IMG/VR virus record: IMGVR_UViG_3300034685_000135
Location: 1 to 22,037 of that record
Direction: 5' to 3' (one strand)
DNA length: 22,037 bases
Source of the DNA: a virus
Shown: one piece after another, positions 4,345 to 19,200 of the stretch
How the letters are laid out: each line of letters starts with the position of its first letter
Position numbering within the stretch: the first letter of the stretch is position 1
Made by a program: the position numbers and the translations under genes
Notes under the pieces: model-generated
Told to the model about the DNA's origin: nothing
Database searches by the model: none
What the model saw: the letters and a program-made list of their open reading frames with translations, nothing else

Positions 4345-5265
4345 GTGAAAGTTAAATTATTTACACATACTGATTTAGATGGTATAGGTTGTGCCATACT
4401 AGGAAAATTAGCATTTGATAACAATATCAGCATCGAATATTGTAATTATGACGAAATAGATAATAAAGTAAAATATTTTCTTGATGGTGACTATTTAAAT
4501 TATGATAAAATTTACATAACAGATATATCAGTTGATAAAGATACAGCAAATAAAATTAATGAAGTTATAACTAACAAAATATTATTATTTGACCACCATC
4601 AAACATCTTTATGGCTTAATAAATATAATTGGGCTAAAGTTATTGAAAAATATGGTATATATAAAACATGCGGGGCACAATTGTTTTATATATATCTAGT
4701 AGAAAATAATTTACTAAAATTGAGTTATATTCATGGTATACAAGATTTTGTGCAAGTTGTGAGAGAATATGATACCTGGGAATGGAAAATTAATAATTAT
4801 ATAAAACCAAAACAATGGAATGATTTGTTGTACATATATGGCAGAGATAATTTCATTGAGTTGATTATTAATAAAATTAAATCGCAATTTAATTTTGATA
4901 ATACTGATTATTTATTGCTTAAATTAGAACAAGAAAAGGTTGATAGATATATAGAAGATAAGGATAAAAAAATGATTGTTAAAAAAATACAAGGCTATAA
5001 TGCAGGAATAGTTTTTGCAGAGCAGTATATTAGTGAACTAGGAAATAAGCTAAGTGAGTTACATCCTGGATTAGATTTTATTATAATAATTAATCTGGAT
5101 AAATCTGTAAGCTATCGAACTGCAAAAGACAATATTAATTTAGGAGTAGATATAGCCAAAATTTATGGTGGCGGTGGGCATCCTAAAGCAGCAGGTAGTC
5201 CAATAAGTGATGATATAAAAAATGAGGTTATTGATTTAATATTTGATAAACGATATTTAACCTAA
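4345..5265 (+). CDS. DHH/DHHA1 family phosphoesterase (NrnA/oligoRNase-like)
   Basis: This 306-residue protein starts at GTG with ACGGAGG upstream. It shows the family signature in order: HTDLDG at residues 8-13, ITD at 58-60, the DHH triad at 83-85 (FDHHQTS), and the DHHA1 substrate-binding motif GGGGHP at 275-280 near the C-terminus. These residues coordinate two metal ions. Family members cleave short oligonucleotides (NrnA nanoRNase), cyclic dinucleotides, pAp, or single-strand DNA (RecJ). At this length without extra domains, NrnA-like activity is the most likely. In a phage it could recycle nucleotides from short oligomers, or degrade cyclic-oligonucleotide signals of host defence; the latter is speculation. 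Confidence 0.85.
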   Translation: MKVKLFTHTDLDGIGCAILGKLAFDNNISIEYCNYDEIDNKVKYFLDGDYLNYDKIYITDISVDKDTANKINEVITNKILLFDHHQTSLWLNKYNWAKVIEKYGIYKTCGAQLFYIYLVENNLLKLSYIHGIQDFVQVVREYDTWEWKINNYIKPKQWNDLLYIYGRDNFIELIINKIKSQFNFDNTDYLLLKLEQEKVDRYIEDKDKKMIVKKIQGYNAGIVFAEQYISELGNKLSELHPGLDFIIIINLDKSVSYRTAKDNINLGVDIAKIYGGGGHPKAAGSPISDDIKNEVIDLIFDKRYLT

Positions 5266-5268
5266 TTA

Positions 5269-5430
5269 GCGACAGAAGTCTCCTACTTCTATAAGTGGGA
5301 GATGAATGTCGATTTATTTGATATAATAAAATATATGGAGATGAAACAGTACTTTTAGTGTGGGTAAATTGGTAACAGAAGTTACCTTGATCACAAAGCC
5401 ATCACCTCTATAGGGGGGGGTAGTTCACAT
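5269..5430 (+). ncRNA. IS200/IS605 right-end or TnpB guide RNA-like structured block, no tnpB
   Basis: This 200-base gap has no reading frame but clear RNA structure. An outer stem, CGACA at 5270-5274 with TGTCG at 5307-5311, encloses a 9-bp stem, CTCCTACTT with AAGTGGGAG (one G-U pair), and a CTAT loop. A second hairpin is GGTAAC-AGAA-GTTACC at 5371-5386. A third, weaker one is around CACCTC-TATA-GGGGGGGG, and the block ends in TAGTTCAC at 5421-5428. This order of hairpins and the G-rich end in GTTCAC recall, from memory, the right ends of TnpB-carrying IS605 elements, whose transcripts act as guide RNAs. The eight-G run appears to spoil the last stem. No tnpA or tnpB is nearby, so this may be a remnant, a non-autonomous element or a reused RNA. 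Confidence 0.45.
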
Positions 5431-5468
5431 CTTTAAATCACAAATAAAAAATATAGGAGGATAATATT

Positions 5469-6035
5469 ATGGATAGTATAATTGGGAATTTAGCTTTAGA
5501 AAATCTTGATGTTGATATAAATAATGATGAACAAAAAGAAAAATGGCAGATTAAAGATGATAATACTGCTGAATGGGCACTGAAGGTCATGAGAGAAGCT
5601 GAAGCTGAATATCAACGGATGGTAGATGTGGTAAATAAAGAAATAGAACAATTGCAGTTGGCTTTAGAAAAGGCTAAGAAAGAAAGAAATAATACAGTTA
5701 ATTTCTTTACAAGTAAACTTAATGAGTATTTTAATACTATCCCAGATAATGTAAAAAAGAAAACAAAAACACAGATAACATATAAATTACCTACTGGAAA
5801 ATTAAAATTTAAATTGTCTAGTATTGAATTTAAACGAGATGAAGAAAAATTGGTACAATGGTTGAAAAGTAGAAATATGAATAATTATATAGAGATACAA
5901 GAAAAACCAAAATGGGGCGAATTAAAAAAGACAGTTAAAGTAGATAAAAATAAAGTAATATCAGAAGATGGAGAAATTGTAGATGGTGTAGAAGTTGTTG
6001 AGACACCGCCAGAATTTAAAGTAGAATTAGGGTGA
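5469..6035 (+). CDS. gam: Mu Gam-like host-nuclease inhibitor
   Basis: The 188-residue protein matches the layout of Gram-positive phage Gam-like proteins: a [16 protein letters not shown] start of a long helix, a coiled coil of about 60 residues ([20 protein letters not shown]), then a beta-rich segment with [20 protein letters not shown] and a final EEKLVQWLK-type helix. Gam binds double-strand DNA ends and keeps RecBCD or AddAB nucleases away. The start has AGGAGG eight bases upstream. It precedes the GGQ protein by four bases, so they are likely one transcript. Family assignment is by pattern; the function follows from the family and fits a linear phage genome. Confidence 0.75.
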
Positions 6036-11139: not shown

Positions 11140-11191
11140 GATTTGTTAAAAAAAACTATTGATAAATATAAAATATAGGAGTATAATATAT

Positions 11192-11310
11192 ATGGAAGTA
11201 GTAAATAAAATTTATCATAAATTTAGCAAATAGATATGAAAATAAAAATAAAAAAGAAAAAATTTACAATAAAAAAGATATGGCAAAAATTATTAAATAA
11301 AGGAGGATAA
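11192..11310 (+). pseudogene. Broken gene start, possibly methyltransferase-type
   Basis: ATG 11192 has TAGGAG and the usual AT-rich leader upstream, but the frame stops after 13 codons, MEVVNKIYHKFSK. This start resembles that of DNA methyltransferases (compare MLEINKIYCMDC at 19201). A neighbouring frame continues with NRYENKNKKEKIYNKKDMAK to TAA just before the SpeD ribosome site. Together with the MT-A70 tail upstream, the 10992-11312 gap appears to be debris of one or two lost genes. Confidence is low because the pieces are short and Lys/Asn-rich. Confidence 0.35.
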
Positions 11311-11312
11311 TA

Positions 11313-11654
11313 TTGCAGGTAGGAATACATATTATTGCTGATTTGAAAAAATGTAATAAACGAAAATTAAATGATATAAATTTTATAGAAAAACTTTTAT
11401 ATAAAGCTTCAGAATTTGCTAATGCGAAACCAATGGGAATAAAGACAGTTAAATTTGAACCACAAGGGCTTTCTTCGGTATTAATTATAGCTGAATCGCA
11501 CATTTCAGTACATACTTATCCAGAATTAGAATATTGTGCTGTTGATATTTTTACATGTGGGAAAAACGCAAAGCCTTTGAAGGCATTTGGGTATATAAAA
11601 AAAGAATTAGAGTGTGAAGAGTATAGGATACAGGTTGTAAATAGAAAAATATAG
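11313..11654 (+). CDS. speD: SpeD-type pyruvoyl-dependent S-adenosylmethionine decarboxylase
   Basis: TTG 11313 follows AAGGAGG. The 113-residue protein has the full class 1 AdoMet decarboxylase core: AESHISVHTYPE at 60-71 and AVDIFTCG at 76-83. Ser62 would be the self-cleavage site that becomes the pyruvoyl group; His67 and Cys82 match the processing His and catalytic Cys. It sits at the short end of the family range. The enzyme makes decarboxylated AdoMet for spermidine synthesis. Some relatives, including phage ones, are reported to decarboxylate ornithine or arginine instead. No spermidine synthase is in the window. The product may serve polyamine supply for DNA packing, or lower AdoMet; both are inference. 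Confidence 0.9.
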   Translation: MQVGIHIIADLKKCNKRKLNDINFIEKLLYKASEFANAKPMGIKTVKFEPQGLSSVLIIAESHISVHTYPELEYCAVDIFTCGKNAKPLKAFGYIKKELECEEYRIQVVNRKI

Positions 11655-16388: not shown

Positions 16389-16423
16389 GTATTTTTACAA
16401 ATTAAAAATATAGGAGTTAGAAT

Positions 16424-16912: not shown

Positions 16913-16958
16913 TTTTATTTATAATTGATAAATAAAAAATATAGGAGATGATAGGTTA

Positions 16959-19157: not shown

Positions 19158-19200
19158 AATAAAGATTTTATTTACAAATATAAAATATAGGAGGTTAAAG

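Follow-up and report, generated by a model that had tools for sequence, protein, structure and literature searches.

A probable miniature IS200/IS605-type element carrying a TnpB guide-RNA scaffold, and no protein genes, in a phage contig

A structured block lies between two genes of the window (the whole stretch of 22,037 nt of a virus contig that was analysed), which raises the question of what this block is, how it came to be there and what it could target. The original prediction, made from the sequence letters, had placed at 5269-5450 an IS605/TnpB-type guide-RNA block without tnpB, and the structural features that it named were all present in the sequence: nested stems (CGACA 5270-5274 with TGTCG 5307-5311, enclosing CTCCTACTT/AAGTGGGAG), a perfect hairpin GGTAACAGAAGTTACC at 5371-5386 and a G-rich end (GGGGGGGGTAGTTCAC / TAGTTCAC) closing at 5428. 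The gap is bounded by a DHH-family ORF (4345-5265; Pfam DHH below the cut-off) and by a Mu Gam-like gene (5469-6035; PF07352, E 1e-27), and it was correctly described as free of genes, as no gene-like ORF of at least 40 aa was found in the stretch separating the flanking genes (5266-5468), where a minus-strand ORF merely grazes 5438-5590. The real unit is slightly larger than predicted and is divided into a target site, an element and a guide. In particular, positions 5262-5428 very probably represent a miniature, non-autonomous IS200/IS605-type element of 167 nt without protein genes, as judged from sequence homology. The features of the locus were as follows:

5256-5261, plus strand: TTTAAC target site or transposon-adjacent motif (TAM), adjoining the left side of the element, read from the sequence.
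5262-5428, plus strand: a probable complete IS200/IS605-type element of 167 nt, non-autonomous and free of ORFs, delimited by aligning its ends with full-length and short relatives.
5262-5311, plus strand: left end (LE), CTAATTAGCGACAG and the nested hairpin 5270-5311; presumed TnpA-binding site, from homology.
5319-5327, plus strand: extended -10 promoter-like motif TGATATAAT, just 5' of the scaffold, without a matching -35.
5321-5428, plus strand: scaffold assigned to a TnpB guide RNA (reRNA) by its full-length match to covariance model R2; its 3' end reads GUAGUUCAC.
5337-5353, plus strand: scaffold helix 1, GGAG 5337-5340 with TACT 5350-5353, partly degraded, one A.A mismatch.
5359-5395, plus strand: scaffold helix 2, 5359-5363 with 5391-5395, with a window-specific double change from C-G to U-A.
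5371-5386, plus strand: scaffold helix 3, GGTAAC AGAA GTTACC, a perfect hairpin and the most covarying helix of the family.
5398-5421, plus strand: scaffold helix 4, which is the right-end hairpin, 5398-5407 with 5412-5421, one A.G mismatch in the window.
5422-5428, plus strand: right-end terminus AGTTCAC, the final bases of the element; GTAGTTCAC is invariant in 24 of 24 aligned sequences.
5429-5448, plus strand: would-be guide ATCTTTAAATCACAAATAAA, phage DNA directly 3' of the scaffold and leader of the gam-like gene; from 5429 on it reads AUCUUUAAAUC.

By homology to scaffolds lying directly downstream of tnpB, the segment 5321-5428 is a TnpB guide-RNA scaffold. A degenerate pattern of its 3' part was found at eight IMG/VR loci and a longer pattern at 16 loci of GTDB genomes, mostly Caloramator; common to these loci was a scaffold of ~109 nt ending in the invariant GTAGTTCAC, and homology stopped right there. 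Covariance model R2, which was built from 23 relatives with the window left out and given a four-helix structure (replacing R1, whose structure was automatic), matched the window at 5321-5428 over its full length (1-109) with 91 bits and an E-value of 1.5e-23. In the alignment of 24 sequences, 99.1% of the cells of the four-helix structure were paired. Moreover, eight pairs showed two-sided change (shuffled mean of 4.4) and the covariation score was 0.243 (0.097 after shuffling), values reached by none of 500 shuffles each, these counts not being probabilities because the relatives are not independent of each other; sliding the partners abolished the signal. All six pairs of helix 3 had changed on both sides across the 24 sequences. 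Furthermore, the plus-strand fold of 5260-5460 was better than 200 out of 200 dinucleotide shuffles (z of -3.3, and -1.9 for the minus strand). In Rfam, searched at the gathering threshold and up to an E-value of 5, only chance-level matches appeared (Clostridium-PBP and RsaA), and neither the window nor the scaffolds of its relatives matched guide-RNA families such as RAGATH or HEARO at gathering score. Thus, the search with guide-RNA models that had been proposed for this block gave a clear match with the purpose-built model and none with Rfam, and the new model covers a reRNA family absent from Rfam 15.

The left end of the block pointed to a transposon as well. It was 92% identical over 50 nt to the left ends of two short elements, L016 and L020 (blast, E about 6e-16), a match that, together with that of R2, shows that the structure is not due to chance. 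In addition, blast of the block gave an 85% match between its first hairpin and a hairpin of an Aneurinibacillus plasmid that lies directly upstream of tnpB, the ORF downstream of it having Cas12f1-like_TNB and OrfB_IS605 domains; the stem at 5270-5311 was therefore reassigned from the guide RNA, where the original prediction had counted it, to the left end of the transposon. TTTAAC abuts this end in nearly every relative, the exceptions being L020 (ATTAAC), L065 (TTTACC) and the degenerate L079. Exact left-end patterns gave no match in IMG/VR and GTDB, and blast of the window block against phages returned nothing at 1e-5 and only AT-rich noise at E-values up to 10. A left-end-like hairpin and another left end were also observed on plasmids. 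A solo left-end-like hairpin lies upstream of a lac-operon regulator on a Leptotrichia plasmid (L008 2501-2554; NZ_CP072379), in a 5-kb locus with no scaffold (best model match E 0.77) and no annotated tnpB, and an internally deleted copy comprising left end, tnpB tail and scaffold occurs on plasmid CP026602 of Clostridiaceae bacterium 14S0207 (L117, about 1740-2114), its left-end hairpin sharing the GGGAGAT variant of the window.

Complete elements with the same ends were found in other virus contigs. The first, of 1688 nt (L017 9345-11032), consists of tnpA for a Y1 transposase (PF01797, E 9.1e-46), followed by tnpB (PF07282/PF01385/PF12323) and then the scaffold, and the second (L111, in a virus contig of 126 kb) encodes a TnpA 90% and a TnpB 84% identical to those of the first. 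The ends of the window element are thus those of an IS605-type element, which bears out its description as non-autonomous, and the similarity to IS605 right ends on which the original prediction could have failed was clear. IS607-type and IscB/HEARO-type elements also use guide RNAs at their ends, so a guide RNA of one of those types was weighed instead of one for an IS605 TnpB; but the full-length relatives carry Y1 TnpA and TnpB with IS605 OrfB domains and the scaffold has no Rfam match, which makes such an origin scarcely credible. A cis-regulatory RNA of the gam-like gene with no link to transposons, such as a riboswitch or a leader, would likewise give a structured RNA in the 5' gap. No Rfam family reached the threshold, however, and the homology ends exactly at transposon boundaries in unrelated sites; homologous IS605 ends already refute this reading, whose probability is close to nil.

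The 22-kb record itself had no tnpB, as no match to PF07282 was found in it, in agreement with a guide-RNA block lacking its nuclease gene, and no gene with a TNB domain, so that no adjacent tldR (a nuclease-dead TnpB repressor of the TldR type) was present either. The proposed search for tnpB thus came out empty in this record and positive in other virus contigs. The virus contig of this record is probably incomplete, and hence a tnpB elsewhere in the phage or in its host is possible. As a separate observation, the virus contig in which the DHH ORF has a homologue (L011; IMGVR_UViG_3300033802_000220) had six ORFs with TNB domains, in open frames of 351-547 aa, and no match to the reRNA model of the window.

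Several relatives were also short and without tnpB. From the left end to GTAGTTCAC these forms measured 167 nt in the window, 182 nt in L016, 193 nt in L020, 214 nt in L013/L014 and 225 nt in L035, and those of L016, L020 and L013/L014 reside in virus contigs. Caloramator sp. mosi_1 had 26 scaffold loci, with a TNB domain directly upstream in about half of them (paired by position), and ten short copies (194-202 nt) that follow TTTAAC in nearly every case, with differing flanks and guides. The guides of the relatives differ from that of the window, and their short copies represent independent insertions. The short copies probably spread as short forms, and not by a fresh deletion each time, because several of them share the internal junction GCGAAAACCAAG..CTAAAATTAGCC, and their dispersal among differing flanks suggests mobilisation by TnpA in trans. 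Copies from C. australicus (L038 and similar) were rejected as short elements, since their left-end distances of 48 nt came from the left-end probe matching the right-end hairpin. An additional observation in the phage contig with the 182-nt element was a series of three successive Rfam group I intron matches within 1 kb (L016 775-1764), of which two exceed the gathering score and one falls just short of it.

Scaffolds without a left end were observed in virus contigs too (L015 690-764, which is the same as L108, and L018 8363-8437 on the minus strand), abutting without a gap the opening codons of a different gene, with an ssb-like start in one case and 'MLVYVLNKHGKP', perhaps IscB-like, in the other. 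The contig of L015/L108 (126-kb record) also has a complete TnpA and TnpB element. A 20-nt match of the orphan L015 guide in another virus contig was taken as chance, since TTAA was present there but TTAAC was not, and the surroundings showed no similarity. Moreover, Rhodothermus phage RM378 had a full-length match to the reRNA scaffold with 109 bits (L116 1586-1695; NC_004735 128214-128323), located directly after the gene of an RNA polymerase sigma factor, with no adjoining tnpB; part of it is annotated as an 84-bp hypothetical protein, and this genome also has a distant TNB-domain ORF (45382-45582) and a weak second scaffold (25637-25739).

As regards the insertion itself, the boundaries of 5262-5428 were set by homology alone, through alignment of both ends to full-length and short relatives. 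Direct reading revealed no terminal inverted repeats, the left CTAATTAGCG being unpaired with the right GTAGTTCAC, and no target duplication, there being no second TTTAAC after 5428. The element provides the stop codon of the DHH ORF (CTAA, 5262-5265), and joining the flanks would give TTTAAC-ATCTTTAAATCACAAATAAA and lengthen the DHH protein from 306 to 311 residues. No exact match to these joined flanks was found in IMG/VR, which leaves the boundaries to homology; as the nearest homologues of the DHH ORF were, in addition, merely 47-50% identical, the empty site was deduced and not seen. The gam-like gene had no close relatives in IMG/VR.

The guide of TnpB is the flank 3' of the right end, and its TAM is the insertion target (ISDra2, PMC8612924), according to which the guide of the window starts at 5429, directly after the scaffold and at ATCTTTAAATC, as had been predicted. 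Across the element, the geometry is that of TTTAAC followed by ATCTTTAAATC... The further proposal that this guide would touch the leaders of many phage genes did not hold. The shared leader, roughly ACAAATAAAAAATATAGGAG, overlaps the distal part of the guide and extends past it, lying outside the seed, and there is no repeat of the first 12 bases of the guide. Among TTAAC-flanked sites on both strands of the record, the best one matched 11 of the 20 guide positions with zero seed matches, and the other top sites had at most two seed bases. Since no other TTAAC-flanked site in the record matches, the expected target would be only the empty site of the element itself, as for ordinary TnpB elements. 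The A-rich leader (~ACAAATAAAAAATATAGGAG) is in its own right an extended ribosome-binding leader directly before many start codons of the phage, with copies at 634-653, 5440-5465, 11164-11189, 11295-11314, 16397-16416, 16922-16947 and 19166-19198.

The explanation that best accommodates these results is that an ancestral IS605 element (LE - tnpA - tnpB/reRNA - RE) would have lost the entire stretch separating its left end from the 5' boundary of the scaffold, the resulting 167-nt unit then being inserted 3' of TTTAAC, presumably by a Y1 TnpA acting in trans, where a DHH-family phage gene ends and a Mu Gam-like gene follows downstream. The unit is in the sense orientation relative to the flanking genes, so operon read-through would produce the scaffold and the guide of the right flank, as might the weak extended -10 at 5319-5327. 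No -35 box matching this motif was found for the window scaffold, and TGATATAAT also occurs elsewhere in the window, in two more copies on the plus strand and two on the minus strand, which makes the motif alone weak. In L016, a 12/12 sigma-70 promoter match lies directly before the scaffold, placed there by deletion. Having neither tnpA nor tnpB, the element could work only with proteins supplied from elsewhere: a matching TnpB from the host or from a co-infecting IS605 copy would load the RNA and cut TTTAAC-ATCTTTAAATC... / TTTAAC-ATCTTTAAATCACAAAT, the empty site. Such cleavage would bring the element back once it had been excised or, by homing, spread a copy to related phages lacking it.

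The identity of the 167-nt element should be distinguished from its present activity, which is doubtful. The element may be a dead fossil, inserted once, its RNA never used and now decaying, a possibility to be taken seriously at somewhat below even chances. Two of the 24 scaffold pairs are broken and helix 1 is weakened, there is no -35, the record has no tnpB, and placing the stem substitutions of the window at random broke as few pairs in 14% of trials (P of 0.14), so that loss of constraint is not rejected and current constraint on the window copy is unproven. Against decay, 22 of the 24 pairs are kept, including the window-specific compensatory U-A and the perfect helix 3, and both ends and the TAM are intact. 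A phage that keeps the scaffold to recruit TnpB against related, insertion-free phages is an improbable alternative. It would fit the sense orientation within a phage gene cluster, the scaffolds without tnpB in other virus contigs (L015/L108 sharing its record with a complete TnpA and TnpB element), the promoter of L016 and the RM378 scaffold without adjacent tnpB; but the guide is no more than the DNA flanking its own insertion, which selfish mobility would by itself lead one to expect. For phage-borne guide RNAs without tnpB in general, it is quite unlikely that they are active trans agents, transcribed from operons, loaded by the TnpB of a host or co-infecting phage and cutting insertion-free relatives; if they were, homing or phage-phage exclusion would follow. 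Trans-encoded omegaRNAs have been reported for IscB.

Overall, the window element appears to be a phage-borne case of a known kind, namely a non-autonomous IS605 derivative comparable with the haloarchaeal PATEs, and its interesting aspect is the full covarying scaffold kept without a nuclease in phages. Studies of TnpB guide RNAs normally deal with RNAs encoded beside their nuclease. In this miniature family, a complete scaffold has been kept but the protein has not, both in virus contigs and in one thermophile chromosome, where it occupies about ten sites; as an orphan-guide family with differing guides, it makes the action of TnpB in trans directly testable. With IS605-type elements having tnpA and tnpB (L017 and L111), the window copy shares both ends, the TTTAAC target, the GTAGTTCAC terminus and the reRNA scaffold, but it lacks both genes and measures 167 nt vs. 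1688 nt. The PATEs (palindrome-associated transposable elements) of Haloquadratum consist of transposase-free, fused IS605 ends (PMC3119063) and are alike in this, in their near-terminal palindromes, in their expansion as families and in having no inverted repeats or target duplication. In contrast to them, the window element lies in a phage contig, has bacterial relatives and has demonstrably kept a complete covarying guide-RNA scaffold, the PATE paper predating guide RNAs. Finally, the locus resembles the reRNA/omegaRNA of ISDra2 and AmaTnpB in its right-end scaffold, its 3'-flank guide and a TAM that is the insertion target and, by description, in a four-helix scaffold of about 100 nt (106 nt with four predicted stem-loops in the AmaTnpB reRNA; PMC10278001), whereas it differs from them in having no TnpB in cis and in being known here from its sequence alone.
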